This document shows, one piece after another, positions 13,681 to 62,777 of a stretch of 64,000 nt of DNA. The notes under the pieces were generated by a model that saw only the letters and a list, made by a program, of their open reading frames with translations, was not told the DNA's origin and searched no databases. The translations under genes and the position numbers were made by a program. The first letter of the stretch is position 1; each line of letters opens with the position of its first letter. The DNA is from Cololabis saira (lineage: Eukaryota > Chordata > Actinopteri > Beloniformes > Belonidae): assembly GCF_033807715.1 (NCBI RefSeq), contig NC_084607.1:15205941-15269940 (forward strand), in the 5' to 3' direction.

Positions 13681-16600
13681 CTAGTATTTTTCTTTCATTT
13701 TTTCCTCCACCTCCTTTTTCTGGTTCTCCATCTCAGTATCCTGATAAAACAGTGTCTCCAGGACAGTTTTCTTTTTTCCTGATGTATCCAGCCCTTCACA
13801 CAGAGAGTCATGGATCTTCTTCCATGAGTCCATCTCTGAGCTCCACAGAGCAGATCTGGCTCTGATAAACTGAGATACCTCGGTCTCGCTGCCTTTGGCC
13901 AGACTGACGCCGTCTTTACAGATGAAGAAGATATCCATCCCAAGGAAGAAAGCATTGGCCACAATGAAAATGGGTCTGGCTGATTTAGTAGCAGCAAGAG
14001 ACCCTTTAGCAGCTGCCTGACCAACATCTGGGATGTCTGAGGCCACCCTTGGGACGTTACGTAGAGCTTTACCCTCTTGAGCCACCACTTTACCAGCACT
14101 GGAAACCAGATCCTCACTTTTTAACAGCTTAAAAGCAGAGACACCATCTACAAGTGCATCAATGCCTTTACCAACTGCTCCAACTTTACAGACCATCTTG
14201 CCTACAAATTTAGCCAACTCCAATTTACTTGTTTGTCTGGTAACCTCCTCCAGACAATCCTGGAGTTTTGTCACATCATCCATGAAGCTTTGAAGGACTT
14301 CATTGGCTTCCTTCTGCTGTTTGAGATTAACACCAAATTCAGTGGCAGTTGTGACGATGCTGTTGACTCCACTGGTGACTCCCATCCCGACACCAGTCAT
14401 TGTCAGAGCTAGAGACACTCCTGCTGTAACAGGAATTAATGCCAGACCAACAATAGACAGCACACCTCCAACTGCCCCCACCGAGCTGCCTGCCACGCTG
14501 GAGATCTTCGCTCCTTTATTCATCCGGTCTAACTGAACTGCATTTCCCTCCAGCTTATTAAGGAACTGCAACATCCTGGGCTGACGCTCACTGAACTCCT
14601 TGATGAAAACTTCACAAGATTGCTCTTGGAACAAGAACACCATCCGGAAGTGTGTGTCCACCCTGAGAGGGTAAGAAAGAAATTGAAACATGCATGTACA
14701 AGGAAGGAGACAAACATGTACATCAATATGAACATTTTTTGTATTAATAGGGTTTTGGTTCCTTATTATTTTGTTTCTTTTTATCAGTATGGCCGGAGTA
14801 TGAGCCATCCCAAACTTATTAAAATCCGTTCTATGGCCTTTGAGGAGAGACTATTTTCTTTAGGGTTGATATAAGTCAATCTAGATGCCTGCAAAGACAA
14901 TTATAATAGTCAGATGTTGACGAACCTATATGCCATGTTTGTTATTTCTAAAATTTTTGTTGCTTGGATGTTTTAAGGGAAAAAAAAAAAGAAGATCATT
15001 ATTTTCTTCCCAAATTCATTTAGATTACAGATAATTTGTTACTTGGGCCCCAAATTATGAGGTATTTCTCTTTATGGTGTAATAGCTTGTTAAAATAATC
15101 TCTCTCTCTATTCCTATGCCCCCTCTTCCTCTCAAAATAAGACCTTTTACACTCTCAGTGTTACATGGTGCTAAAAAAAACAAGACAGAACTAGTTCATC
15201 ATCTTATTAACCAGCCAATATATACAACATTATTTTGTTGATGCATACCTATGGCCATAAATACCACACACTTTAGTAGAGTAAATATATAAACAACCAA
15301 GCAAACCCTTAAAAAAGTAGCTGTGCTCACTAACAGGTGTGTTGATGCCAAGAGACATCTAAAACATGCAGCCATATCATAGCTAGAAGGTCCTGTGTTC
15401 AATTCCCATCGGGGACGCTGTGGGTGCTGAGTGTGTGTTAAATTCCCCCATGACTTCACAGGGTGGGGTTGGTGAAAGGGCTTTTCTGTGTGGAGTTTGC
15501 ATGTTCTCCCCGTGTTCCCTTGGGTAGCAATGTGAGCTACCCTCACAAAAACATGCAACAGTCCTGGGCTATACATGCCCCCTCTGGCCAACCGGGGCGC
15601 CAGATGGGGTGGGGAGGATCCGGCCGGAATGACGTGATCCTTCCACGTGCTACGTCCGGCCGGAGAAACCCCACCCTGTCTGGTGAAAAGAAGCTGCTCA
15701 CTCCTCAGGTTAAGGAGGAGACCTGAGCTCAGTGCAGGGCGCTCCCTGGGTTGGTAGATGGGAGCAATGCCCAGGACTGTCACTTAGGTAGGAGCACTGG
15801 GTGATAAATAAAATGGGGAAAAAAACGGGATAAAAAAATATATTAAAGGAGCTTGAGGCTCCTTTTCAGAAATGAGACTCTCTAGCGCCACCCTTCACCA
15901 CGACGGCCGTTGGGGGTACTGCAGCCAACAGCGAAGCCGGCACGGGAGAACGGGGAGAACGCACATGCAGCGTCATGTGACGTCACATCCGCAGCCCAGC
16001 GCGGGAAATTCGGGACCGAATTGCAGCACATTTTGCAGCACACAGCCTGTTTAAGGCAAAGGAGAGATACACTACTAGAGGAATCATTCTTTTGGGTTTG
16101 GAACGCTTCATCAGACATTATTACTAGAAAACTTAAAATGTATACAGATTTTTTTCATAAATCCTGCCACAATCCGGCCTCAAGCTCCTTTAAAAAAAAA
16201 AAGGAACATAAAGGGGTTATCACTATAAACCAAGCTATACTGACTTTAGGGACATAAACATACCTGGGTAAAACTTACCTGATTTCATCAAGCTGATTTA
16301 TGTGATCAAGCATCTGCCGTATGTCACTTTCAGTCAAACCAACATTGAGTTTTACTTCAACTTCTTTGATCATCTTCAGGCGAACATCATTGAAGCAGCT
16401 GTGAAAAACAAAGTTACCTTTTTTTCTCCATAGGATAATATTAATGACTAAATTATTACTGTAAAATGGATGTTGTTTTGCAAATCTATATGAACCTTTT
16501 CTCCATCTTCTCACAGATGATCTTGCAGGTCTGTATGTATTTACCCAGCTGATATGCCATGACGTCTGCGTTCTGAAGTTTGGGAAGGAAGAAGACGTTT

Positions 16601-19198
16601 GCGTCTCTTTTAAACCCCAGGAGCAGAGGACAGATGAGTCGTGCCGTGGAGATGGCGGCCTGAACGTGATCAAGGCTGACGTCTTTAGGAAGGGACAAGA
16701 CCTCATTCTCAGCGAACACGTGCAGAGACGTGACGGCCAGCTTCTCCACTGCATCCAGGAAGCAGGCCAGCTTCTCCAGACCTCCCAGAACATCCTTCAC
16801 CACTTCAGCCAGCTCCTTCTCCACCGCTGTACGCCTGCTGTCTGTTTTAAACTTGCTCTTCATATATTCCCCGAAGGCCTTACCTTTGTTCTGTGACTGT
16901 TTAACATGACTCAGGTGTAAGGTGATTTTATCAGCTCTGTCTTTGATATCCTTCATCATGTGCAGCTCTGTCTCCCTCATGAGCATCCATTTAGAGAACC
17001 TCTCACAGAATCCCCTCACTGTGTGGATGTAGGTGAGGGTATCTGAGGTGTAACGACACAAGGCCTCCTGTAGTTCCTTTCTGTAAAACAAAGCATCGAC
17101 CACTTGTGACATTTGAAAATAAAATACTAGAGAACACTTTAACAATATGCAATTTTGATTTCTTTGATGTTTTATATAAAAGGTATTTGTTATTTTCTAC
17201 AGTATTTGCCATGTCTTAGCTGTGGAGCGTCAACATTGAGAGTTTCATATGATGTTAGTTACGTCCGAGGTGCGACAACTATCACAGCCATTCTGTCTTT
17301 ACACCTTGGACAGAGAAAACGTGTGAGCAGAAAAGATGCATCAGCTCCATCTTATTCAGGTGTTTGAAAAAGTCCTAATTAGAGAACAAGATATGTAGTG
17401 GACAGAGAAAACAGGTATGAAAAGAAAAAGCTATTACAGATCTGCAAGGATGAAGAAAAAGAAAAAGCCAAAACAAATGCATCTTTATCTTTGAGATCTT
17501 TTTGAGCCGAAAGGAATATTAAGGTCTGGCATCCACTGACAGCACAAGACGTAACAACAGGAACAGAAAAGTTTTGCCCTGGCTACCCTAAAAATGTTCT
17601 GCTGTGTGATGTGAGCTTCAGCAAAAAAACGAACAAATGAAATAAAATATAAAAGGCTGTCCTGAATGTGGAGCGGCATTTTCAACATTCTCAAATCATA
17701 GGCTTTGATTTCAAAACACGCCATCATTGTGGAAATGTGCTAAATTTCTACATTTTACATTCTTTTTAGCACAGCATTCAACACCATAATCCTACAACAA
17801 ATCATCTGCAAACTGGGCCGGCTGGGACTCACAACCTCCCTTTGCAACTGGCTGCTGGATTTCTGCAGTGCGAGGCCGATTGTGAGTGACGCCAGTCACC
17901 CTCTATATCAAATATAGATACATGCATATATATATATACATATTTCTGCTGCTAGTTCCATTACATCTGCCTTTTTGCACTTATTATACTGTATTGTAGT
18001 GTATATTGTCCATCAGTGTATATATTTTTAAAAGTTTTGCATTTTAGTATTTCTGTATTAGGAATTGTCTGTTTTATCAGTTGTGTCTGTGCATTTTTCA
18101 TTTTAACAGTTTTCATCGCTGGTGAATGATAAATGTCTTCTCAACTCTTTCTATGTCTGGTACATTTGAAGAATTGACATTAAAGCTGACTTTGACTGTG
18201 TAAGAGACACCACAGACTGTCCAGACTTCCAGCAAGAAATAAAAAGAGACAAAAAGAAGAATATTATAAAGATCAGCTTGTATTGCAGTTTGTTTTTGTT
18301 ATAAATGTTGAACATTTGGAGGCACAAAGGCAGTAAAAGGCGTTTTTTGCAAATTAAAACCTGCAAATTAGAAGAAACAAAACGACTACAAAGAGACATA
18401 CTGTATCATGACCCATTTGACCTATTTGTCTCTCTTTGCTTGTGTTGTTGTGTTACATAACCTCTTATTTAATAAAGGCGCCTCAACAGTATCTCACAGC
18501 AATAACATGATAACAGCAATAAATGATACGTTATATACAATAGGGGTATTCATAGACCTACGAAAGGCATTCGACACCATTCACCATGGACTGCTGCTAA
18601 AGAAATTGACAATAAACTAAATTGGAAATCACATATAAACAACCTAAGGCTAAAACTATCCAGAACCATTACTGTAATGAACAAAATGAAAACAGTCCTA
18701 AACACAAAGTTACTTTATCTGCTATATTGTTCCCTCGTATTCCCACACATCAGCTATTGTGTTGAAGTCTGGGGGAACAACTATAAAACAGTAATAAACC
18801 CAATTTATTTACTTCAGAAGAAAGCCATTAGAACTGTTTGCAAGTCTGATTATTATTTGCCTACAAACCCACTGTTTATTGACCTCAAATCCTTAAAATT
18901 AATTGATATAGTTGAATTAAACACTGCACTCCTAATGTATAAGGCACACAACCATCTCCTTCCATCCTGTGTCCAGAGTCTGTTCCAGGCTAGAGATAGC
19001 CGGTACGACCTGAGAGGCACTGCCATATAATACAACCAAAACTAGGATAAATACTAAAGAAAGATGCATATCGGTTGCAGGAGTTAAAATATGGAACACC
19101 CTAAATAAGGAATTAAAAAACTGTAGTTCAATAAATAAATTTGAAACGATGTATAAATCCAATATAATCGAAAGATACAGAACATTAGTGTGATACAA

Positions 19199-21356: not shown

Positions 21357-21560
21357 TGGGGGGAGTGATAGTCTAGTGACTACAGAGGTGGGCTTGGGTC
21401 TGGTCGGAGCCAGGTTCAAGCCCCGGAATTGCAACCAAGATGAACCACCTTGGGCCCTTGAGCAAGGCCCTTAACCCTAATTAACCCAGGCGAAATGGCG
21501 TGTTTGTTCTCTCAGATGTAAGTCGCTTTGGATAAAAGTGTCTGCTAAATGACCGTAGTA
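21357..21560 (+). repeat. tRNA-derived SINE
   Basis: The head carries an A-box-like TAGTCTAGTGAC and a B-box-like GGTTCAAGCCC about 45 nt later, the layout of an internal Pol III promoter. The tail is GTAAGTCGCTTTGGATAAAA then GTGTCTGCTAAATGACC and (GTA)n. It is inserted into the Tc1-like element at 21,013-22,140. Confidence 0.75.
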
Positions 21561-25415: not shown

Positions 25416-25772
25416 ATCACTGCTGGCGCGCCTGCGTTTGTATGTGTGTAAATCCTTCTGTTTAAATTTGGGGAAGTCAGAGAAGCACTTAAAAATCAGG
25501 GTTTCATTCGGTCAGCTGTTAGTAGTTAGTAAGATAAATAAATAATTGTTTGTTTTTGTGGGTGGTTGTTTATCCGATTTGATTTGATGGTTCAGTGTAT
25601 GAACTCATTTTATATGAGAACAGAATTCCTGCTCCTGAACAGATCGGATACACTGTTGGGGATTTTTTTACCCTCAATGATTAAGCACACGGAGTGACTT
25701 CGTGTTGAAACTTCTTATCAGACAGCTCCATCCAGGGAAATTAATCCATTTGCAGCTGGACATACCTAGTGT

Positions 25773-26630
25773 ATGATTTTGCGTGTACGAATGTTGTCTA
25801 CTAAAATGATCGATGTGTGGTCGAAGTGTGAATCCGGCTCTTTTGAATCGATTCTGTATTCGACTCTGACCAGGTGGTTAGAAAAGGTTCCCAAATCTGA
25901 TCGTAACAATGCCCGACGCAGATTTGTATTATGGGTTGAGGAAATGCAGAAGCGTGGCCTGTTCCCCGACACAGAAGGAGGGCCTGTTGAGGTAGACACA
26001 TTTACATCAATTATTCGACAAGCTGCAGAGAGCCTAAAGGCAGCTTGTTTGGAAAAGGAGAAAGCAGGCATCTTAAAGAAAAGGCGGGCCGTCAAGGCTG
26101 TAAATAAGGCAGATAACTTTTATTCAGATTGTCAATGTTTCTTAAGTGAGTTAAAGTTCACGATATCACAAGAGGAGAGGGACACAGCTTATCTCCTGAG
26201 AGTACGGGAGTTATGGCTTGATGTATTGGTGAAAAGTCAACTGGGGGAATCTAGGGATGAGATCAATGATGAAAGATCTGAGAAGCGGATGTTACAAACT
26301 AGAAACCCCCACCCTGGCCCTCCCTCCTCCTTTCTCCCGACACCTCAGTTGCCCCCCCCCCCCCCCCTAGACCCTCCCTCTCAAGCCCCCCCCCACTATG
26401 ACCCTTTGTTTTCTCCTCAACAGTCAGAATTCTATACACACCCCCACCACTCTGGGGTGAGACCACATTCGTTTATGCGTGGTGTACCTTTCCGGGGACG
26501 GGGAAGACGGACAAACAATACACGATCTGGTCAGAACTTGTGTTTCCGTTGTAGACAGCCGGGGCACTGGCAGAGACAATGTGGAGCTCGCTTTGCTGGT
26601 CTACCTAATGGGAGTAGGGTTCGACTATAG
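25773..26630 (+). CDS. gag: Retroviral Gag-like protein, shortened
   Basis: An intact 285-codon ORF between the LTRs. Residues 1-150 form a charged, helical N-terminal half. Residues 175-215 are Pro-rich and include PPHY, a PPxY late-domain motif that in retroviral Gag recruits budding machinery. Residues 235-250 are Arg/Gly-rich, and CFRCRQPGHWQRQC (about 262-275) is a CCHC zinc knuckle with C-x2-C-x4-H-x4-C spacing, the RNA-binding hallmark of nucleocapsid. At 285 residues it is well short of usual Gag size, and I see no capsid major-homology region, so the capsid part may be deleted or very divergent. The first in-frame ATG is used; others follow at codons 7 and 12. Confidence 0.88.
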   Translation: MILRVRMLSTKMIDVWSKCESGSFESILYSTLTRWLEKVPKSDRNNARRRFVLWVEEMQKRGLFPDTEGGPVEVDTFTSIIRQAAESLKAACLEKEKAGILKKRRAVKAVNKADNFYSDCQCFLSELKFTISQEERDTAYLLRVRELWLDVLVKSQLGESRDEINDERSEKRMLQTRNPHPGPPSSFLPTPQLPPPPPLDPPSQAPPHYDPLFSPQQSEFYTHPHHSGVRPHSFMRGVPFRGRGRRTNNTRSGQNLCFRCRQPGHWQRQCGARFAGLPNGSRVRL

Positions 26631-33499: not shown

Positions 33500-36480
33500 A
33501 TTTTTATTTATAACACACTTTATATTTAGTAATCTCAAAGTGCTATAGAGCAGAAAAATAAAACATGATTTTTTTAAATATATTTTCAAAAAGAGCATAT
33601 AAAAGATATATTTAGCTATAAGCATTATCAAAAAGGTGAGTTTTCAGGTCCCGTTTAAAAGCCTCTGCAGTCTGTGGGGCCCTCAGATGGTTGGGAAGGG
33701 CGTTCCACAGCCTTGGAGCTGCAGAGGAAAAGGCCCGATCGCCCAACGTGCGGAGCTCGGTTCTGGGGACTTGGAGGGTGTTTTTGGATGCAGAACGGAG
33801 GTTGAATGGGGAGGTCTGGAGGGTGAGTAGTTCTTTTAGGTATTAGGGGGCATGTCCGTCCATGCACTGATGAGTGGGGAGGGAGAGCTTATACCCAATT
33901 CTGAGTGGGATGGGGAGCCAGTGTAGTGATTTATCTACAATGTAGTGACTACTATTAGTTATCTAAAGAATACAAACGTATCTACACCTTCCTACCTGAT
34001 TTCTTCAAGCTGGTCAACATGGCGAAGCATCTTTTGTATATCATTAAATGGCAAACCCACATCTAGGTAGACCGGAACCTCTTTCTTCACCATAGGGCTC
34101 AAATCACTGATGCAGCTGGTAATAAAACAGTTGAAAATGAATTTTCTGGTGACACAGATGCAAAAAAATATTTACCAAGCCAAAGAACACAAACTGTCAA
34201 GTTGATTATAACAATTAACCTTTTTTCCAGCCTCTTGCAGATGTTCTTGGAGACCTGTATGTATCTTTGCAGCTGATACACCATGATGTCTGCGTTCTGA
34301 AGTTTGGGAAGGAAGAATACATTTGCATCTCTTTTAAACTCCAGGAGCAGAGGGCAAATGTGCCGTGCAGCGATGATGACTGTCTGAACATGAGCGTTGA
34401 TGTCATCAGGCAGGTTTAAGACCTGATTCGCTGTGAATACATGCTCAGAGGTGACAGCCAGCTTCTCCAATGCATCCAGGAAGCGGTCCAGCTCCCTTAG
34501 GCCTATCAGGATGTTTTTAAAGACATCTGACACTTCTGTACTTCTGCTATCTGTATTCAACTGAAGTTTCTTGATCTTTTTCAATTCCTTTTGCCTTCTA
34601 TCCATCCATTTGGGGAAATTCCCACAGAAATCTCTCACTCTGTCAATGCTGTCGAAGGTATCTTTGATGTATTTGCTCAGGGCCTTGCAGAATCTCTTCC
34701 TGTAACACAAATAAAAAAATGTCTGCATAAAATCAGCTGTCCAGACAAAACAAGTTCACTGTGCAATCAATAAATGCCAGTCTGTGTACTAATAGGACTT
34801 TGGACCACATGGCGACAAAACAGCTGAAACAAGTTCATGGTCAGTCCCTGCCAAGCGCCAACCATCTAACTTGCTTGGTACTGTGCCCTGGATAGCAAAG
34901 TCAAATCCTGGGGAGCCAGACTTTTTTTTTTTGTTTGTTTGTTTTGTTTTTTTGTATCTTTTAAATTTTTTTGTATTGAAAAGTAAAAAAATAAGGCTGG
35001 CTGGCCAGGCTAACAAGTCTTGGCAGAGGAGCTCAGTTATTACTTAAATAAACAGAAGCTTAACTGTGGTTAAATTCACATTAAGGCTCCAAAACTGGCA
35101 GCAACAACTCAAAGTCAAAAAGGGAAAGCACTTTTTTATTAATGTATTATTATTAATTAGTTTGGCAACTCACCTCAGTCTTCCTGGGGTTGAAAGCTAT
35201 TTTGATTATTTTGTCATGTCTGTCAGGAACTGTTATTTATAGATCCTATAAGCCTATTCTGGTTTTAAATACATCTAGCCTATGCGCATCTTAGACCGAC
35301 CTAAATCAAGCTCCTCATTGTTGGACAAACGCACCAAGAAAGCGGTTTAAGATGAGCTCATCCCTTCAGCTGGACTGAAACTGCCCTGTACAGGCATTAA
35401 CCCAGAAGTACAGGAAGAAACAATGTCCTGTTAAGTGCTAAACCAAGAGCTGGAGCTTTACGAAGCAAAGATACGGCCTCACAACGTGACTTACAATTGT
35501 ACAAGTTATTCAAAACTGTTATTAATTGTTAATAAATTAAACCTCAATAGAGCAAATTTAATTTGGAAATGTGAAATGAAAAAAAAACTAACATAGGATA
35601 ACTAGTTCTTGCCTGATTATACATATAGACTTCATTTATACTTATATTTCTGTATAATACTTTTTATTTACACTATCCTGTCTATTCACAGCAGTTAGAT
35701 TCCTTGTGACTTAATCAGTTATCATATTTAGGGTTAGGTTGGGTTATAAACTGCTTACAGGTTCAAAGGTGCCATCAGTACAGAAAGTGAAAGCGTTCCA
35801 TTTATATATTCATATATTGAGTGGATAAATGACAAATCAAAAAGAGAAATAAATTATACCAGATCCACATTCTGTGTTTTGTACCACCATTTTTATCTAA
35901 AAAATTATATCAATCCTGACTGGACCTGTTCTAGTACAGCAGTTTTGATCAAGTGTAGTCAACATGCTGAAAAATGGAGTGTAATGGACCGCAGTGAAGT
36001 TAGTTTTAAGTTGAATATTCGACAGACATTCGCTCTTGGGAACCTTCTCAGTTGCTCAGGGTCCAAGGAGACTCAGAGGAAGCCCCTCCAACATTTCAAG
36101 TGCACACAGCTAAAATCTCTGCAATACAGACGACTTTAACGACAGAACATAATTCACATCAGCCTTAAATATAAAGTGAAACAAAACATAAAAAAATAAT
36201 CACTTGGACAAGTGTAGGACAAAACTATGTTTTGGAAAGGTCTTTCTCAGAAGTAGCGGGAATCTCATAGATAAAACAGAGAATAAAGCCACCGACGTTA
36301 GTCTTTTATTAGATTTTTGAATGCTTACTTATAGGCTATGTACTTTTTGGGAATTATTTTTATTTTTTATAATGCAAAAAGAATCCGAGGATATAGTTAT
36401 GGGAAAATATACAGCCTATATTCACATGCATATTTTCTATATATAAAACAAAACATGAGCCTGAATACTTACTTTTCCAT
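32449..36480 (-). CDS. apol: Apolipoprotein L-like protein B (4 coding exons, start provisional)
   Basis: Tandem paralogue of ApoL A. Exons: provisional 36,480-36,473 (ATG GAA AA, then GTAAGT), 34,699-34,220, 34,115-33,996 and 33,391-32,449 with stop; all introns phase 2, giving 1,551 nt, 516 aa. The middle 120-bp exon has the same length as in A. The [10 protein letters not shown] entry, Gly/Ala hairpin (about 256-300) and SQFIRARAALWKSE block are conserved. Compared with A, the large exon is 105 bp shorter, the hairpin is about 10 residues shorter, and the C-terminus is different: a hydrophobic segment (FLVRFLTAALFFIYILYI) followed by a short basic end. The start is uncertain; 35,775-35,759 (ATG GCA CCT, donor GTAAGC) is a phase-compatible alternative. 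The three main exons are firm. Confidence 0.82.
33430..33960 (+). repeat. (AAT)n array and dispersed repeat in intron 3 of ApoL B
   Basis: (AAT)n at 33,437-33,498 is followed by TTATAACACACTTTATATTT and then the body GTTGGGAAGGGCGTTCCACAG, CCTTGGAGCTGCAGAGGAAA, up to about 33,920. This body recurs across teleost genomes; I do not know its formal family. Confidence 0.6.
34735..36470. other. Proposed intron 1 of ApoL B
   Basis: No repeats with clear ends and no conserved ORF. It contains the alternative first exon (35,759-35,775) and the ISRE-like core at 35,783-35,793. Confidence 0.4.
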
Positions 36481-39505: not shown

Positions 39506-39589
39506 CGTGTCTGGATAAACTCTCTTATCAGTGCCTCATCACTAATAAACGGGGGAACATTGGACAAGGTGATTTATCTCGCCGCATTA

Positions 39590-39709
39590 AGGCTGATTTA
39601 TGGTTCCGCGTTACACCACACGCAGAGCCTACGGCGTAGGTTACGCGGCGACGCCGTAGGCTACGGCGAAGACTCTGCGTCGATTTAACGCGGAACCATA
39701 AATCAGGCT
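39590..39709. mobile_element. PIF/Harbinger-type MITE, 120 bp
   Basis: A foldback with TIRs AGGCTGATTTATGGTTCCGC and GCGGAACCATAAATCAGGCT, flanked by TTA on both sides (39,587-39,589, 39,710-39,712), the PIF/Harbinger TWA habit. The core is an unusually GC-rich palindrome around CCTACGGCGTAGG. Half-copies are at 42,537-42,593 and 47,115-47,165. Confidence 0.85.
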
Positions 39710-40051
39710 TTATTCATCCGAGCAGCGGACTTGATGCTGCTGTGACCCACAACATGGCTGCAGTCCGTTAAATAACACATCCATGCTGCAGTCCTCCACA
39801 AGGAACAAGGAAACCCTGGCGAGATCTTAATACCGTGTTTCCCCGTCAGTCTGGTCAGAGAAACCAACAAACACGCCCCGACAAAAAAAATGGAGAGGTT
39901 TATTCTGTCGTTTTCAAGTCGGGCAGAATGAATGCTTCCTATGGTGTCTATAAAACATTTATCAGCTCCAACTCGGGTAAAATACTCTTTATTTGCTCCG
40001 TTACATAATGATATCTGCGCTACATAAACGAAGCTGCGGCCGAGGGGTTGG

Positions 40052-40113
40052 TGACGTCATTGCAGCGGCACGCAACGAAAAACATAGAAGAGCGCTTGCG
40101 CAGCTGTGACGTA
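40052..40113. promoter_or_regulatory. CRE-type sites upstream of the orphan ORF
   Basis: A full palindromic TGACGTCA at 40,052-40,059 and TGACGTAG at 40,106-40,113 lie 120-180 bp upstream of the ATG at 40,232, in a locally CpG-containing stretch. This fits a compact promoter for the orphan gene; the link is inferred. Confidence 0.35.
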
Positions 40114-40231
40114 GGCATATTCCATTGATATATTCTACGTCATTCTGGTTCGAAGTCATTTGACAATAATCCGTGCAGACGATCACAGCAAAACATTTTT
40201 GTTACACTTGATTAAACGCGTTCAAAACATA

Positions 40232-42103
40232 ATGATCCCGCAGAAAGAAAAGGTGGCCTTAACTGCCGCTGTTATTCAGCCCCTTATTCATCACTTCTTC
40301 AGCACCATTACAGCAAAACAGTGGGAGAGTGTCACCACTGGTTCTCCAGACGACCACACAACCGATATGCTGGCTTCATTTCAGTTTAAAATGACAAAAC
40401 AATTAGCAGCATCAGTTCTGACCCAGATTCTTAAACGAACCGTCACCTGTGAGGAGATAGTCCAGGGCATTGCCAAGCAAGCCTACATGGATATCTCAGA
40501 CTTCTTCAAGAGAGAAGCCATGCATCATGTGGAAAACAAACCAGAATCCTCCATCCACTCTGATCAGGACCCTGCTGCACCTTTTGTAAAACAGATCAGT
40601 GATGTCGATAATATTGACAATATGGTTCAGGCTTCCCTGATGTTAATAAGAGAATTCCTGGTCAACATGTGCAAACCTCAACGACACAGCGAGGAAATAT
40701 CTGAGGAACAAAGTGCCTCTGTGGAAAGTCCATCACAATCCACCCAAGAGGAGGAATCTGTGTGTGAGAAGACTGATTACAGAGATTCAAGCGACCAGGA
40801 AAAGAAACACAACGCCTTCCAATGGTTTTTCATACCCAATGAGTCTTGCAGGACTGTTAAGGACACTAAAATTGAAGTTGCCCTTTCTTCAGAATCTACA
40901 ACAGAGATGCCAGATTCCAGAGATTCAAGCGACCAGGAAGAGGAACAGGAACAGGGGGACACTTGCGAAGCAGTTGTGAGATTATTCCTTAGGGGCCTTT
41001 TTGATGTTGCTTTTATGAACTCAAACCCGACCTCCGTACCAGAAAACTTAACAGACACCTTTGAGACTGTTTTAAAGCTACTGTTGGATGAAGTAAGAGG
41101 AAGACATTTTGTTATACCCCAAGAAAGATTGAACAAACTCACACTTGACATGTTTGACCGTCTTTGTGCAAGTAGTGGCTGCCCGGAAAACGAAATGATG
41201 AGTTTAATTTTAGAAGAACCAAGGACACATGACATAATTCTCTACCTTTTCAAAAAACATATATTTAAAAAATTGAGGAAACCTAACATCCTCCAAAAGT
41301 TTTTTGCATCACTTCGTATTAAGTCTTGCAAGACTGTGAAGGACATTAAAAATGAAGTTGCCCTTTCTTCAGAATCTACAACAGAGGATGAATCATCCAA
41401 CAACTCAGAGCAGGAACTATTGTCATCAATATCTGAAACAGAGGAAGAACCATCCACAATCTCTCAGAAGGAACCAGTCATTTTGCCAAAACCTGCAGAA
41501 GTCCAAACACCCAAAGTCCTTCGACAGGAACCTATATCTTCTCCGCGGAGTGTGGTCCAGTCTGTCTCTGAAAAGGATGATTGTCTTCCAGTTTCAATAT
41601 CACCAGTCCACCATATCTCTGATCCCAGCACTGCACAGATAAGTAGACCTATAGAAACTGGTCCAGTGGCTGCCGTCGGATCACAGGAAACATGTGAAGT
41701 TACCACAGGGGCAAAGGAAGAAGTCAAAACAGCTCTGAGAATGTTTCTTATCAAACTGATCTTGAGAATAGATGAAAAGTCAAAAGTGGACTTCCCGCAT
41801 GACCACTTTTATGCTGTCACTGAGCGACTGTTCCCCAAGATTTGGGCTTTAGTTGATGGTGAAGATTTTCATGTAAAGAAGATAGAAAACCTCAACAAGG
41901 CCATTTATAAAGACCTTCTGAAAATGTGGCACCGCCAAGATATTATACTGATATTCCTGGAATTAGAGAAGCCAGTCATAGACAACACATTTTTGTCCTG
42001 TGTTAAAAAACACTTGATGACTGTGTCAAAGAAAACCAGTGGCACCAAACGGTTTTTCTCATGTATCGGAAGAGCTCTCAGGACGGCCTGCTGTTTTGTT
42101 TAA
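40232..42103 (+). CDS. Orphan three-module protein, 623 aa, single ORF
   Basis: I do not recognise this gene. The frame is open from 40,160, but the first ATG, with A at -3, is 40,232; a stop follows at 42,101. Three helical modules can be seen: about 1-200, 240-360 and 500-623. Each ends in an aromatic pair plus Cys element: FF (199-200) then SCRTVKD (205-211); FF (357-358) then SCKTVKD (365-371); and RFFSCIGRAL near 607-616. Acidic Ser/Glu-rich linkers (RDSSDQE, ALSSESTTE, SSISETEEE) join them. Modules 2 and 3 share an FL-x-L / LP-H-x-F / hydrophobic-helix layout. A 63-nt segment is duplicated inside the ORF. The protein ends CCFV after a basic patch, which could be lipidated. No signal peptide or membrane span. 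The long ORF with consistent protein texture argues it is real. Confidence 0.7.
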   Translation: MIPQKEKVALTAAVIQPLIHHFFSTITAKQWESVTTGSPDDHTTDMLASFQFKMTKQLAASVLTQILKRTVTCEEIVQGIAKQAYMDISDFFKREAMHHVENKPESSIHSDQDPAAPFVKQISDVDNIDNMVQASLMLIREFLVNMCKPQRHSEEISEEQSASVESPSQSTQEEESVCEKTDYRDSSDQEKKHNAFQWFFIPNESCRTVKDTKIEVALSSESTTEMPDSRDSSDQEEEQEQGDTCEAVVRLFLRGLFDVAFMNSNPTSVPENLTDTFETVLKLLLDEVRGRHFVIPQERLNKLTLDMFDRLCASSGCPENEMMSLILEEPRTHDIILYLFKKHIFKKLRKPNILQKFFASLRIKSCKTVKDIKNEVALSSESTTEDESSNNSEQELLSSISETEEEPSTISQKEPVILPKPAEVQTPKVLRQEPISSPRSVVQSVSEKDDCLPVSISPVHHISDPSTAQISRPIETGPVAAVGSQETCEVTTGAKEEVKTALRMFLIKLILRIDEKSKVDFPHDHFYAVTERLFPKIWALVDGEDFHVKKIENLNKAIYKDLLKMWHRQDIILIFLELEKPVIDNTFLSCVKKHLMTVSKKTSGTKRFFSCIGRALRTACCFV

Positions 42104-42593
42104 AAAAAACAACCAAAGCTACTGATTGTAATGGGTTTAAAGCCATTGAAAATTAGTTTTTTAGTTGCTCAAAACTTAAAAAGTCATCAGGTCTCAAAAG
42201 CTTTATTAGTAAACTATGTCACAGTTTGAACATTGTTATCACTGAGGACATGTGGACAAGGGTTAAGGCTGAATCAAAGGGGACCTCTTATGGCATTTAA
42301 TGTCTATTTTAAACAGGCCTTGAATGTCTTAAAAACAAGCTTTTGATAGTTTTTTCTATATACATTAGAAATTCAGCCTCTGGGCCATGTCTTTATCTTT
42401 ACCGTTTCTAACCTCATTCTCTATGAGGGATTCTGAGTGGGCGGGGCTATGATAATGAGGCAATGTGCTGATTGGCTGCCTGAATGACGCGATACACCGC
42501 TACTAAAAAATGGCGGAAGCTCCGGCCGGCAGAGTTAAGCCTGAATTATGATTCTGCGTTAATCGACTGCGTAGGCTCTACGTTGGTGTCACG

Positions 42594-43277
42594 CGGCCTT
42601 CTCCGGGTGGGTGGAGAAGTCCTGCCTCAGGTGGAGGAGTTCAAGTATCTCGGGATCTTGTTCACGAGTGAGGGAACGATGGAGCGTGAGATTGACAGAC
42701 GGATCGGTGCAGCGTCCGCAGTTATGCGGTCGATGTACCGGACCGCCGTGGTGAAGAAGGAGCTGAGTCGAAAGGCGAAGATCTCGATTTACCGGTCAAT
42801 CTACGCCCCTACCCTCACCTATGGTCACGAACTTTGGGTAGTGACCGAAAGGACAAGATCGCGGATACAAGCGGCCGAGATGAGTTTCCTCCGCAGGGTG
42901 GCTGGACGCTCCCTTAGAGATAGGGTGAGGAGTTCGGTCACCCGGGAGGAGCTCGGAGTCGAGCCGCTGCTCCTTCACATTGAGAGGAGTCAGCTGAGGT
43001 GGCTTGGGCATCTGTATCGGATCCTCCTGGACGCCTCCCTAGGGAGGTGTTCCAGGCATGTCCCACCGGGAGGAAACCCCGGGGAAGACCCAGGACACGC
43101 TGGAGAGACTATGTCTCTCGGCTGGCCTGGGAACGCCTCGGACTCCCCTCGGAGGAGCTGGAGGAAGTGTCTGGGGTGAAGGAAGTCTGGGCATCCCTGC
43201 TGAGGCTGCTGCCCCCGCGACCCGGGAACGGATAAAGCGGCGGACGATGGATGGATGGATGGATGGATGGATGGATT
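42594..43277 (+). mobile_element. Rex3 (RTE-clade LINE) 3' end
   Basis: Plus-strand frame: LLRVGGEVLPQVEEFKYLGI, MEREIDRRIGAASAVMRSMY, SIYAPTLTYGHELWVVTERT, then SFLRRVAGRSLRDRVRSS. After about 43,000 the frame shifts to VFQACPTGRKPRGRPRTRW. This is the C-terminal domain after the reverse-transcriptase palm. The end is (ATGG)n at 43,246-43,277, which matches the GATG-type tail reported for Rex3. 5'-truncated, joined directly to a PIF-MITE half-copy at 42,537-42,593. Confidence 0.88.
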
Positions 43278-57057: not shown

Positions 57058-60000
57058 CTACCTGATCCGTCCGTCCACTCTGGGCGGCTTCAGTTCAGAT
57101 TTTGGGTCGGGGCTGCGGGAGCTCCACGCCGTGAGGTGGCAGTGTTGCATGAAGGGGCAGGAGCTGGAGCCCAGTGAGCAGATGTCCGCGGCGGACCAGT
57201 GGCCCTGCAGGAGCCCGTCCAGCCAGCGGCGCAGCGGCGCCCCCGTCAGGCCGGCGTTGGCCTCGGCCTCCTCCACGGCGCCCAGGCTCACCGGCAGCTG
57301 CAGGACCGGGTTCAGGCCGTGGAAGCTCTGCTCCATGTAGGAGTTCCTGGTCGGACCGCCGTGCAGCCGCAGAGCGTCGTCTGGAAACACCAACATGTAA
57401 GTGAGAATTCAAGGGGAAAATCTTAAAGGCTGGACTAAAAACACTTAAAAGACAGACTTCTTTATGGACATTTATCAATATTATTACTAAACTACGGTGG
57501 CCGAGACCCGCCATTGCTGAAAATAAAAGTAACGCTGCAAACAGAAACAAACGCCGCTGCAAATAAAATAAACACTTAGCAAATAAAATTAACGCTGCAA
57601 ACAAATAGAAACGCCGCTGCAAATAAAAGAAACGCTGAAAATATAAAGAAACTGCTTCAAATAAAATAAAAAACGACTCAAATAAAAAAGCCACAACGGA
57701 AGTGAATTACCCGGGGCCGATGCACCGGTGTTTTTATGTGAGAGGTGTTGTTGTTTTTGTTGTTTTTATCATTAATAATAATGCCAAGAATAATCTAAAG
57801 CGTGGGTAACAATAGTTATTTGTATGAATGTGAAGTTGAAGCTGTGTGTGGTGGTCAGGGACTTCTCCTCTCACGTAAAAAACACTGGTGCATCAGCAAA
57901 AATAGTCCCCGGTAATTCACTTCCGTTGTGGCTTTTTTATTTGCGTCGTTTTATTTTCAGCTGCGATTTTTTTTAATTTCAGCGTTTCTTTAATTTGCAG
58001 CGCCGTTTGTTTCTGTTTGCAGCGTTACTTTTATTTTCAGCAATGGCGGGTCTCGGCCACCGTACTAAACAGACATGTGGAGCAACAAGGAGAAATAAAA
58101 CAACCAAGTTATTTAGATACAAATATGTTAGATTTTAACATACAAACATAGTCATCAACTGCAGCTACATGAGAGACCATCAGATCAGCTCGCGTGACAC
58201 ACCACCTGAATCTGATCATGTCTGTTGATGCACCGTGCTTTAATTAGTCCTGCATGCCCACACAAGCCCGCCAAGGTCAAGCGACTCAAACAGCGAGGAG
58301 GAGGAGGAGGAGGAGGAGGAGGCGACGGATTTGGACAGAGGTGACCCCGCATGTGCACGACAGAGCGACAGAACACTATAAATACATGCATGTGTGATGT
58401 GACAGCTGGGGCGGGAGGGCCTCAGCTCCTGCCGCTCAAGTATTAGCTATTATTCTCTTTGGTCTGGAGCCACCTATCAAACGCTGCTCGGTTTACTGAG
58501 TTCACAGACCAACTCTGAGGGAAAGTAGATAACAAACAGGTGAGATACATTTACAGTTTACGTGCGATGTGAACTTGCTGACACGGCACACCCTGTCCTT
58601 ACAAACAGAAGCTTTCTTGGTTAAATATATTCGCTGGAAACCATCACCTGTGAACAACGTTTGAAATTAAAGAGATGTCCGGGGTCATTACAATCCCTTC
58701 AGTCATTAAGATGATTTAAGTCGGGGGAGGAGATAATAATGGTGTAGATGAGGAAATGTGTGTATTATCACTGTGAAATATTCAGATTTATTAGACGTGT
58801 TTAGTTTCCTGCTTCATCGTGTGGGCAGAGGGGCTCGCTTGTCTAGTTGTTGTGATACAGGGGGTTCTCTGGGAGTTTGGGCTGCCAGGTCCCTCTACAT
58901 CAAAGCTTAGTCTGGGTCGTCGGCTGTAAGCAGGACTCGTTCCCGTGAGGGATGGACTCCGCCAAGGATGCCCTTTGTTACAGATTCTGTTCATTACTTT
59001 TATAGACAGAATTTCTACAGAGGGGTGAGAGGGGTGGAGGGGGTCCGCTTCGCTGACATGGGAATTGGGTCTCTGCTTTTTGCATGTGATGCGGTACTGT
59101 TGGCTTCATCGGGCCAGGACCTGCCTCTCTCCCTGGAGCGGTTCGCAGCGGCTGGGATGGGAATCGGCACCTCGAAATCTGAGACCACGGTCCCCCGTCG
59201 GAAAAGGGTGGAGTGCCCTTTCCAGGTCTGGGATCAGGTACTGCTCCCAGTGGAGAAGTTCAAGTATCTCAGGGTCTTGTTCACGGGTGAATGGAGCAGG
59301 AGATCAATAGGCGGATCAGTTCGACCTCCACAGGGATGCGGACCCTGACATCCGTCAGTTGCAGTGAAGAAGGAGCTTAAAGGCGAAGCTCTCGATTTAC
59401 CAGTCGGTCTATATTCCCAGTCTCAGCTATGGTCAGGAGCTGTGGGTGCTGACCGAAAAACGAGATTGCGGTGGAAATGACTTTCCTCCGCCGCATGTCC
59501 AGCCTCTCTCTCTCCGGAAGGAGACCCAGGGAAGACCGAGGATAAGCTGGTACACCTTTTCCACCAAACCGGTTCCAGAGCTGGTTCGGAGACGGTGCTG
59601 GTTCACAACTTGTTCAACCAGCTGAGAACCTGTTTGCTTTTTCCATAGCTCGGGGTGCTAAGGGGAGCCATGTCATTACGTCACTGCAAACGTCAGTTAC
59701 GTCGCTTCAAACTTTAGTTACGTCGCTGCAAACGTCAGTTATGTTGCTGCGTTTGCATTGACGTGAAAATTGGTTTAATACAGGCTTGGTTATCGCTAAA
59801 AGACAGGTTGTCTCCTCCTCAGACCACTGCTGCTTTGCAGCATCCAGATTAATTTGTCACTTATTTGAAAATGTCGCCGACTCGCAGTCTTGCTATTGCC
59901 GTTGGTCTTAACAACTCCGCCCCCTCCGCTTACGTAGGCGGTCCTTTCCTGTAGCCCAGAAAAAGAGTTGGTGCTACCTGGAACCGCTTTTTCTGGCCCG

Positions 60001-62777
60001 GGGGCCAGTTATTTGTCAGTGGGAACAGAAAGCCCGGTTCCAAGCTCAGCACAGACTGCGTTTACATGCAGTCAATAACCCTTTTAAAACTCGAATATTG
60101 GCAATAACCCGAATTTGCACAGCCATGTAAACACCAATAAACCCTTTGAATAACACGAATTTGCTCATATTCCGGTTTTTAAAAACCCGAATATGACCCC
60201 TGGGTTACTCCTTTTAAAACCCGAATATTGGGTCATGTAAACGCTGAACGCAATATCCCGATCAAATGGAACATGAATTTGTTTTCTGTGCATGCTCTGT
60301 TCGCAAGGAATCCTGGTCTTTTGAGTCCAGGAAGTTCTTATAAACACGGAGAAACACAAGACCAGGAGGAGACTAATCACTTCATAAATGTAATGAAGGA
60401 TATGAACATTTTGGCATTCGTAGACAGTAAAAAGTACCGGGATAGCGAGATTTAAAAGAAGGTGAGCGTAAAGTTGCGCAAAGCAGCATTTGTTTTGAAT
60501 TTGGATACAGGAAGAAGAAGCGGAAATGACGGGAATTGCGTCATGATGTTCTCCGTGCGTCGCTGGTTTCATCGAGATATACCGAATGATTAATTACCAT
60601 CTAAACGGAATATTCTGAATGTTTCAGTAACCGGAATATTTGCAATAACCCGAATTCTGACTGCATGTAAACGTAGTCACTGACTCCGAACCAGCCCTGG
60701 AACCGGTTTGGTGGAAAAGGAGCATGGGGGGACTAAGTCTCTCAGTTGGCCTGGGAACGCCTTGGGGGCATAAAACGCTGCATCAAGACATTCCTTTTAA
60801 TCGTTCTCGTCAAAGTTTTCCATAAAGATTTTTTTAGGTATATTATATCCTTTTTCTGGCAGCTGGAATTATGCCAAGTCTTTCTAAGTTCTTGTTGCAT
60901 GTGTGCTTGTCTTTGTATGACAGAGAAAAACGGTGCTATAATCACAGATGAAATACGATGTCTGATGTAAAACAATATGAGTGTCACACCCGTACGGACC
61001 GGCACACGATCACACCCACCTCTCTGGATGAGCTGCTGTCGGTGAAACTCCAGCGGAGCGACGACGAAGCTCGTCTGGCCCAGCGGGCTCCAGTGGTGCA
61101 GGACCCTGAGCGTCCAGACGCCCGGCCGCAGCGGGGGGGTGAGGGGCGGCCGGTAGTGCGTGACCTCAGCGGACGCCTCCACCAGGATGTCGTAGGTGGC
61201 GGCGATGACGTTGGTGGGGTCGACCCACACGATGGTGGCTGTCAGGTTGTTCTGGCTTCGGCTCCAGCGCTGCACGGCCACGGGCTCGTCCGTGGGTCCC
61301 AGCAGACCCCCCCAGTTCCTGAAGAGACGCTCTTTTGGATCCCAGTCTGAACCCACCTGAAGCGATTGGAGAAATGTGTGATGTTCACAATAAAGGTCAC
61401 TCTGTGTAACTTTGGGCCAAATCCACAAAGAATAGATTGCGCCCGCAAATAGCGCTGTGAATTGCGCCGCATTTGCGCCCGCAATTTGCCCCTCTTTAAG
61501 GTCCTATTCACAAAAGATTTTGCTCTAATGATATACCGGCGCAGACACGCCCATAAAGTTCTGCAGCTGAGTGGGATTTTCCCTTGTCTGAGTAAGTGAG
61601 CGGAGCTGTTTCCAGTGTTCTCCATATTTCAGCACACAGATTGGTCCATAATGAAAACTGCAGAGAGCACAACAGCCTCAACTTTCACGTATTTGTACTT
61701 CTCTAGTATTTCGCATGTATGACATAAGCTAATGAAATGTCAAATGTTAAGAGGCTGTGCGCATTTACGCACAAGGAACAGCACCGGTCACTTCATTAAC
61801 AACGGATCGGGATCAGATCAGGATCTGACGGTAATTCATGTTCTTTGTTTTGCTACACACACCTACAGGTCAGCTGTTAAACACACACATTATACATTTA
61901 TATGTTTATATGGTGGAATTGTTTGTAATAAAGCAGCCCCTTATGTATGGATGAATCCTGAACTCCGTCCTGTTATTTTTAAATCCGAGATAAGTCCACA
62001 ACCCCACTTGATCTGACTGTCTACAGTCATGTCTGACTGTAGATTTCACCCTTAATATCATTCATATCACACAGGCTTGAATGATATTGAAGAGAGAGAG
62101 AAACAGAGACAGAGCGGGAGTGAGGAGTGAGTTTGCGTGCAGTTAATACACGCTTCGAAAAGACGGTATTTGCTCCACTATTTTTGCATGTGGCAAATAG
62201 CGCTGGCCTTTGTGAATTAGACGGTTTTTGCAATGAGGCTTATTTGCATAGAAAGGGGGGAATTTTGCGCCAAATGTATGAATATTACCTAATTTACATG
62301 CATGCAAATGGCACAAGCGCACCATGACACTATTTGCTTGGCAGCGCAGTTTGTGGTACAATTCGCCCTTTGCGGGTGCTTTGTGAATTAGACGCTCTCT
62401 TTTTGTTTCATTTGCACCGGTTTAGCGGCAGCAAAAGCCGCGCAATCCTTTTGTGGATTTGGCACTTTGTGTTTATTTGAAACCTGATCAGTTGGTCTGA
62501 CATAAACCCACAACTGTGTCTGACACTGAAGACCAGCTCCAGCTGCAGATAGCGGGTCAAAGGTCAGGTATGCATGCCCACCTGGATGTGCAGGAGTCTG
62601 TTGTTGACGTGGGGAGGCTTCGCCAGCACAAAGTGGTCTTTTGGTGTCACCCAAGTCTCCATGCTCTCCAGCTGGGTCGAGGCTCGGTTCGTGGCTACGT
62701 GGCGCACCAGGTAGCCCTGGAACCGGTCTGACAGGAAGTACAGGTGCACCGACACCGGGTGGCTCACGGCCACGTAC
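57058..62777 (-). CDS. xylt1: Xylosyltransferase C-terminus, three last coding exons (partial)
   Basis: 3' end of a peptide O-xylosyltransferase gene, the Golgi enzyme that adds the first xylose of glycosaminoglycan chains to proteoglycan serines. Exons: 62,777-62,582 ([36 protein letters not shown]), 61,356-61,020 ([60 protein letters not shown]) and 57,380-57,058 ([39 protein letters not shown], stop). Junctions are GT/AG and phases agree. The text covers the end of the catalytic region and the family's specific C-terminal (Xylo_C) domain; upstream exons lie beyond the window. [10 protein letters not shown] and LHHW favour xylt1, while DEPVAVQ is xylt2-like, so the paralogue is not certain. 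The 3.6-kb last intron is full of transposons. Confidence 0.9.
57493..58062. mobile_element. Long-TIR element in the last xylt intron
   Basis: The ends TACGGTGGCCGAGACCCGCC and GGCGGGTCTCGGCCACCG are inverted repeats and the homology extends about 200 bp inward. Direct TACTAAAC words flank it (57,485-57,492 and 58,063-58,070), an 8-bp target duplication of hAT type. The arms contain irregular repeats of CTGCAAATAAA-like units. Confidence 0.8.
59555..60720. mobile_element. TIR element inserted in Rex3
   Basis: TIRs of at least 30 bp: CCTTTTCCACCAAACCGGTT, then CCAGAGCTGGTTCGG, mirrored by GAACCAGCCCTGGAACCGGT, then TTGGTGGAAAAGG. It has no coding text. A second TIR element lies within it. The target duplication is not clear. 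Confidence 0.85.
60053..60678. mobile_element. Inner TIR element
   Basis: Ends ACTGCGTTTACATGCAGTCA and TGACTGCATGTAAACGTAGT; the arms continue with repeated AATAACCCGAAT / ATTCGGGTTATT words at both sides. It lies wholly within the element at 59,555-60,720. Confidence 0.8.
61416..62463. mobile_element. TIR element between xylt exons
   Basis: Ends GCCAAATCCACAAAGAATAG and CTTTTGTGGATTTGGC, with further inverted arms (GCGCCCGCAAATAGCGC against GGCAAATAGCGCTGG). ACTTTG flanks both sides (61,409-61,414; 62,464-62,469), probably part of the target duplication. 1.05 kb, non-coding; it fills most of the intron between the xylt exons at 61,356 and 62,582. Confidence 0.75.

Follow-up and report, generated by a model that had tools for sequence, protein, structure and literature searches.

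A stretch of 64,000 nt from the genome of the saury Cololabis saira (C21:15205941-15269940; hereafter the window, with positions counted from its first letter) carries an uninterrupted frame of 623 codons that starts with an ATG at 40232, ends with a TAA stop at 42101-42103 and is open upstream to 40115. Does this frame encode a protein, and if so, what is the protein built from and where might it act? A preliminary description had judged the 1.87-kb frame too long to be due to chance, and comparison with random sequence bears this out: the longest open run of the window is that of the ORF, 662 codons, whereas the longest runs in 40 window-sized first-order Markov sequences range from 127 to 256. 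Two close paralogues, L009 (833 aa) and L010 (1100 aa), are encoded on the opposite strand at distances of 231 and 240 kb, and dN is below dS in most, not all, comparisons. We conclude that the ORF is a real coding gene, apparently an intact one.

Two module types in the window protein

The same description had divided the protein into three related helical modules. Segments 239-372 and 496-623 are indeed weakly related (3 of 1000 shuffled sequences score as high), but residues 1-150 are unrelated to either of them, with 418 and 592 of 1000 shuffles reaching the observed score. Three copies of one module are ruled out by these shuffle tests and by family profiles, which find one module type (A) once and another (B) twice. 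Since the profiles show two module types, we read the three modules of the earlier account as A-B-B plus a stump. Both types are supported independently by single-sequence searches of the genome, in which residues 468-618 match at C19 with 31% identity (E 7.9e-11) and residues ~6-157 are 21-26% identical to stretches on C8, C9 and C16 (best E 6e-9).

Module A of the window protein is 94% identical to that of L009, 43% to that of L010 and 22-26% to A modules on other chromosomes; the last B modules of the window protein and L009 share 88% identity. In a tree of the modules the two B modules of the window protein fall into two different B groups, each common to L009 and L010, the first copy clustering with the inner B modules of both paralogues. 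This tree, which omits near-copies in L024 and L026 (8 of 67 modules), has few columns and unsure deep forks and was used only to place the window protein, L009 and L010. The alignment A2 comprises 23 of 24 chosen B modules, L018, which is partial, being left out.

Acidic linkers rich in Ser and Glu lie, as had been noted, between the segments that low-confidence models predict to be helical. The element FF...SC(R/K)TVKD had been taken for the common end of three domains. Its recurrence is instead a 65-nt direct DNA repeat (94% identity) that adjoins a 44-nt repeat, and it is a recent duplication of linker DNA. The FF element proper is a feature of B-module tails, occurring in 17 of 41 last-B tails and in 22 of 69 B tails overall. 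The copies of the two linker repeats are spaced by 480 and 138 nt, both multiples of three. The order of the repeat copies, the similarity of the stump to the terminal part of the B profile (a score reached by 3 of 200 shuffles) and the presence in L010, at the matching place and before the same linker, of a full B module ending in LCRTVKYTKNEVALSSESTTEMPDSRDSSDQE together suggest that the first SCRTVKD copy is what is left of a B module after in-frame loss of its body. Both module loss and duplication were found, in keeping with the rapid internal rearrangement proposed earlier.

Single-sequence and two-row structure predictions gave mostly helical models of low confidence (mean pLDDT 41.7 and 49.7), with three long helices and a fourth at 125-146 in A, six helices in the last B, and long unstructured stretches between modules. 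The helical character ascribed to the segments holds in these models; it does not extend to the linkers, and the confidence is too low for a fold. A loose pattern for RII-docking amphipathic helices, a feature of A-kinase anchoring proteins, matched the window ORF twice against a shuffled mean of 0.97; each match falls within a B module, in its first helix.

Table 1. Features of the window around the ORF, its presumed promoter and its ApoL neighbours
Feature	Position	Strand	Evidence or remark
Protein-coding ORF without introns (623 aa), arranged as A - stump - B - B - tail	40232..42103	+	Length against chance, paralogues L009 and L010, dN/dS
Module A, residues 2-150, predicted helical	40235..40681	+	Profile E 1e-66 (window among seeds)
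Second linker repeat, copy 1, 44 nt, 86%	40766..40809	+	
Stump of a putative lost B module, module end only, NAFQWFFIPNESCRTVKD	40811..40864	+	Match to end of B profile, comparison with L010
Direct repeat of 65 nt in linker, copy 1 (94% identical to copy 2)	40842..40906	+	
Second linker repeat, copy 2, 44 nt	40904..40947	+	
Module B, copy 1, residues 247-354	40970..41293	+	Profile E 6e-36 (window among seeds)
Linker direct repeat, copy 2, 65 nt	41322..41386	+	
Module B, copy 2 (last B), residues 498-606	41723..42049	+	Profile E 1e-32 (window among seeds)
C-terminal tail, basic, aromatic, Cys-containing, RFFSCIGRALRTACCFV	42050..42100	+	Tail survey of the family
Upstream region common to L009, presumed promoter and 5' UTR	39893..40231	+	93% over 931 columns starting at 39893
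Perfect palindromic CRE, TGACGTCA	40052..40059	.	180 bp before ATG; kept in L009
NRF1-like site, GCGCTTGCGC	40092..40101	.	At -140; sole match of the pattern in the 64-kb window
Two CRE half sites, TGACGT at 40107 (-125) and ACGTCA at 40137 (-95)	40107..40142	.	
ApoL gene, PF05461	13681-14850	-	E 1.5e-35
ApoL gene, PF05461	32449-33507	-	E 8e-14
Open frames upstream of the two ApoL genes	16486-17196 and 34099-34755		No Pfam match

The family in the genome and its turnover

The genome (1.146 Gb) was searched with three protein queries, namely the window protein and the family members L012 and L025, and only the best candidates were scored. The matches listed number at least 68, 68 and 70, respectively, and overlap; after merging of starts within 5 kb, these best candidates occupy at least about 81 places on at least 18 contigs, some of the places being broken or matching in linker repeats only. 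The window ORF almost certainly belongs to a multigene A/B family, a large and fast-evolving family of modular helical proteins that seems to be undescribed. Beyond L009 and L010, relatives with 21-36% identity are found on C1, C2, C3, C5, C8, C9, C14, C16, C17, C18 and C19. With the C1 member L025 as query a further set appeared, in which open frames reach 3251 aa and which forms arrays at C7:22988900-23176682 and C16:25928655-26044097; the longest frame contains at least two A-like units. When the ORF was compared with the rest of the window by tblastn, no relative was found there.

Across the window and the first 20 regions, iterated profiles identified 19 near-full A modules (~149 aa) and 49 near-full B modules (~112 aa). 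The window protein is A-B-B, L009 is A-B-B-B and L010 is A-B-B-B-B; genes at six loci on C8, C9 and C16 are A-A-B, and another group consists of B only, in two to seven copies. In the wider set (L025 and those in L029-L045, n = 17) the profile detects a terminal B in 16 of 17 and a weak A-like match near the start in 9 of 17 (E < 0.01). Linkers are acidic and Ser-rich, with tandem repeats in several members. Tandem 15-aa repeats make up the linkers of L012-L017 (EESTSLSQVEHFAAC type) and of L011 (EEDMMEVTSVESFTL type), and since near-identical copies carry different numbers of repeats, they differ in protein length. At L024 (C3:35697000-35703500) an open stretch of 1240 codons holds seven B modules, six of them nearly identical; to judge by its sequence, this B array has grown very recently.

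Synonymous divergence differs sharply between modules of the same pair of genes. Between the window gene and L010, dS is 0.75 in A and 0.037 in the last B plus tail, and between the window gene and L009 it is 0.043 in A; we attribute this discordance to exchange between paralogues. Constraint on the C21 trio (the window gene, L009 and L010) is mild in A, with dN/dS of 0.54, 0.58 and 0.62. The mean is 0.87 in the inner B modules (15 pairs) and 0.81 in the last B plus tail, where the three pairs give 0.59, 0.64 and 1.60, the last value being that of the window gene against L010 on just 20 changes. Constraint is clearer in the A-A-B group (0.24 in the first A, 0.57 in the second, 0.34 in B), and one B-only group reaches 1.31. 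The fast evolution claimed in the preliminary description is thus found again, in means of 0.60-0.87 by module within the trio and in the B-only value. Given the ratios of 1.31 in the B-only group, 0.87 in the inner B modules of the trio and 1.60 for the window gene against L010, some members may be drifting.

The same means within the trio, together with a B module cut to a stump, would fit a decaying or non-functional copy that keeps its frame by chance. However, 623 codons pass without a stop, the copies of each linker repeat lie a multiple of three nucleotides apart, and the upstream region, CRE included, is kept at 93% identity to L009. We regard decay as highly improbable.

The dispersal of the family raises the possibility that the ORF is a passenger, or the coding part, of an undescribed mobile element spreading intronless copies. 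Near-identical dispersed copies with common flanks occur on C8, C9 and C16, two of five compared pairs have the same left edge (L012 base 811), and the genome is described as repeat-rich in the excerpts of a saury assembly report (PMC11077904). Yet the left edges of the other three pairs differ (L012 bases 1006, 1045 and 1449). A match to a transposon protein, named in the preliminary description as a sign against its own reading, was looked for, and the ORF and nine other members yielded no transposase, integrase or reverse-transcriptase domain. Moreover, promoter DNA travels with the copies, which argues against processed retrocopies. An origin in a mobile element is therefore very unlikely in our judgement.

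Known proteins and the ApoL neighbours

As the preliminary description had stated, no known domain can be assigned: Pfam, NCBIfam and the PDB gave no credible match. The window ORF matched no Pfam family up to E 10, and no death-fold or TNFAIP8-like domain was found in it by this search; the best E was 0.0068 for the 23 B modules and 0.09 for five A modules. A single one of the 23 B modules matched TNFAIP8 (E 0.0073), which is within chance over 23 queries. None of nine further members reached a Pfam cut-off, the best being DUF1262 in L021 (E 1e-5, 26.2 bits against a cut-off of 27); other matches below cut-off were DUF2025 in L021 and Prok-E2_E and Histone in L026 (E 1e-4 to 1e-3). NCBIfam gave none at cut-off for nine proteins, the best being RbfA in L026 (E 0.00087, 19.6 bits against 202). 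We read these sub-cut-off matches as chance. The best PDB match by sequence was the influenza haemagglutinin stalk (E 0.015), which we put down to chance likeness among long helices, and a fold search with the low-confidence model as query gave a best E of 0.91. Viral, bacterial, phage and plasmid collections contained no relatives beyond one plasmid match at E 8. The modules are thus without a credible match in the domain libraries although the family occupies dozens of places in one genome.

The window protein, the sole family query in this search, is absent from a protein database that holds saury proteins. We infer that the 833-aa paralogue is missing as well, because its A module is 94% identical and the same search should retrieve it. 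Distant members may well be present there as unnamed proteins, and similar unnamed proteins presumably occur in teleost annotations. A literature search aimed at such a family returned nothing fitting, which is no proof of absence from print.

The ApoL neighbours reported earlier are present, as two minus-strand genes with PF05461 (Table 1); the open frames upstream of them are probably their N-terminal exons. LOC133422125 of Cololabis saira matches the ApoL exon next to the ORF with 100% identity across 84% of the query, and several further ApoL proteins are listed for the species. The Apolipoprotein L family resembles the A/B family in being multi-copy in the saury and is its neighbour in the window, but the ORF itself gave no PF05461 match, and an ApoL-like identity is ruled out by the lack of any Pfam family up to E 10. 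Since the A/B family lies on at least 18 contigs, its closeness to ApoL, seen at the window locus, looks incidental.

Promoter motifs and a possible site of action

The region upstream of the ORF contains a cluster of CRE sites and an NRF1-like site (Table 1), and no ATG lies between the CRE cluster and the ATG of the ORF, as read directly from the sequence. L009 retains an NRF1-like site along with the full CRE. We extended the count to 39 ORFs of the family, with the first ATG as a proxy for the start site; left out were the broken pieces of L018, the second ORFs of L012 and L015, which lack a separate start, L030 as the continuation of L029, the 222-aa L046 and the short additional fragments of L020, L045 and L047. 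A full CRE occurs between -350 and -1 in 23 of the 39 members and a CRE core of at least six bases in 32. The full CRE is lacking in 16, including the entire six-member A-A-B group, and seven lack even the six-base core. Full CREs reach a density of 2.56 per kb in this interval versus 0.107 per kb elsewhere in the same loci, and in 10 of the 39 members one starts 12-24 bp before a TATA word.

Because the members share ancestry, promoters were counted by group, those still alignable being merged into 18 groups. The full CRE is present in 11 of them (expected 0.60, Bonferroni p 5e-8). In an unbiased 8-mer test CRE words come first, and the NRF1 core CGCATGCG reaches significance as well, in 5 of 18 groups. 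Two sets of control genes from this genome contained no full CRE: 20 single-exon receptor genes (the first 20 out of 150; their promoters could be more distant) and 14 histone genes (15 of 128 taken, one without ATG), whose promoters are close. Six-base cores numbered two in the 20 receptor genes and four in the 14 histone genes; the histone control is smaller than it appears because these genes are near-copies of each other. Transcription of the family is probably CRE-driven, as far as motifs can tell.

These motifs bear on the proposal, made as speculation in the preliminary description, that the gene encodes a fast-evolving defence or cell-death factor, considered here as a helical, infection-induced protein among immune genes. 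Fast evolution and module turnover agree with it, as do the two ApoL genes in the window, one ISRE-like word ~1 kb before the ATG and the weak TNFAIP8 match in one of 23 B modules (E 0.0073). However, the patterns applied to the 3 kb upstream detected neither a GAS nor an NF-kB word, no credible death-fold or immune domain was found, the family has places on at least 18 contigs, and the 8-mer test is led by CRE words and the NRF1 core. The results do not support this proposal, which we hold to be quite unlikely. The CRE-type promoter points, tentatively, to germ cells and away from immunity.

According to the available portions of two reports, CREM and CREB bind TGACGTCA and its half sites, and the activator isoform of CREM is selective for haploid spermatids (PMC3091680, PMC10454534). 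About 1% of CREM-occupied promoters are regulated by CREM, and neither a full CRE nor a TATA word is predictive of this (PMC3091680, in part). CRE palindromes and half sites were described in 5'-UTRs of salmon sperm mRNAs, in passages that discuss them as possible RNA elements (PMC6122464). NRF1 motifs, along with motifs of further CpG-island factors, are enriched in open chromatin of zebrafish spermatids, and every stage of spermatogenesis shows this pattern; CREM was not found in the main text of that study, as far as the portion at hand extends (PMC12759076).

The ends of the proteins also have features in common. Net charge is positive in 40 of 41 last-B tails, and pairs or triplets of Cys stand at the terminus of L025, L042, L043, L009, L010 and the window gene. 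A basic helix with a lipid on Cys is a way of tethering a protein to a membrane. Because of the CRE/CREM literature and these basic Cys tails, the best reading in our view is a modular, membrane-tethered scaffold of the haploid germ cell. Copies would have spread as DNA segments carrying their own promoter and would afterwards have gained, lost and exchanged modules. CREB/CREM-type factors on start-proximal CREs would drive transcription, with help from NRF1 in some members, and, if CREM targets are a guide, expression would most likely take place in the haploid male germ cell. The tail might anchor the protein to a membrane through a basic amphipathic helix and lipid-modified Cys, while A and B modules would bind partners, making the protein a cytoplasmic scaffold. 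For this explanation as a whole (lineage-expanded, intronless modular family, CREB/CREM-driven, haploid male germ cell, tethered scaffold) we see even chances; expression in male germ cells, an analogy, we put slightly below that, and the membrane tether, suggested by tail composition, is more tentative again.

A somatic or general cAMP/ATF-responsive family, with roles in stress, in endocrine tissue or in the oocyte and not in the male germ cell, would draw on the same CRE evidence, since somatic CREB and ATF factors also use CREs. According to the excerpts of one report, this site is bound by CREB (PMC3091680). Nine tissues make up a saury RNA panel (ovary, brain, eye, gill, kidney, liver, muscle and two parts of the gut, with no testis, in the excerpted text; PMC11077904), which belongs to a draft assembly other than the one searched here. 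A gene with broad activity in these organs would more likely have been predicted, and neither the window protein nor, presumably, its 833-aa paralogue turned up in the database; on this indirect argument we consider the somatic alternative unlikely. With the germ-cell scaffold as the preferred reading, that absence could be due to a panel without testis.

If the family is germline-specific, its regulation would have been kept while module turnover rebuilt the protein, and the miss by such a panel would be explained. A motif common to promoters that are otherwise no longer alignable offers a direct and cheap test of the family's site of action. A bolder version of the scaffold reading, which we think rather unlikely, would have an undescribed superfamily of two new helical modules, wired as a set to CREM in spermatids, in which module swapping under sperm competition or germline conflict generates lineage-specific membrane-tethered sperm scaffolds.

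TRIM proteins carry known domains, unlike the A/B proteins, in which none was found. The expanded fish TRIM genes, an example of lineage-specific multigene families of teleosts, as treated in the available part of one report, resemble the family in duplication-driven expansion and fast change (PMC2657112). CREM-regulated spermatid genes, as portrayed in excerpts, have full or half CREs near the start, some with a TATA word, but are unrelated single genes, whereas the saury case is one expanded family with a common signature of sequence motifs (PMC3091680, PMC10454534).

Several other features of the window were noted. Four CRE cores (TGACGT) lie within 87 bp at 59678-59764, a second cluster resembling that of the ORF promoter. 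A 28-nt inverted repeat (93%) around 72 nt, MITE-like, is located at 39586-39713, upstream of the presumed promoter. Downstream of the ORF, an open frame of 231 aa at 42484-43179 with no Pfam match, which resembles a reverse-transcriptase remnant, is followed by short tandem repeats. Finally, the window contains a UnaL2 LINE 3' element (RF00436) at 21505-21558, a zinc-knuckle gag-like frame (PF00098) at 25770-26630 and, on the minus strand, a xylosyltransferase C-terminal domain (PF12529) at 60742-61503.
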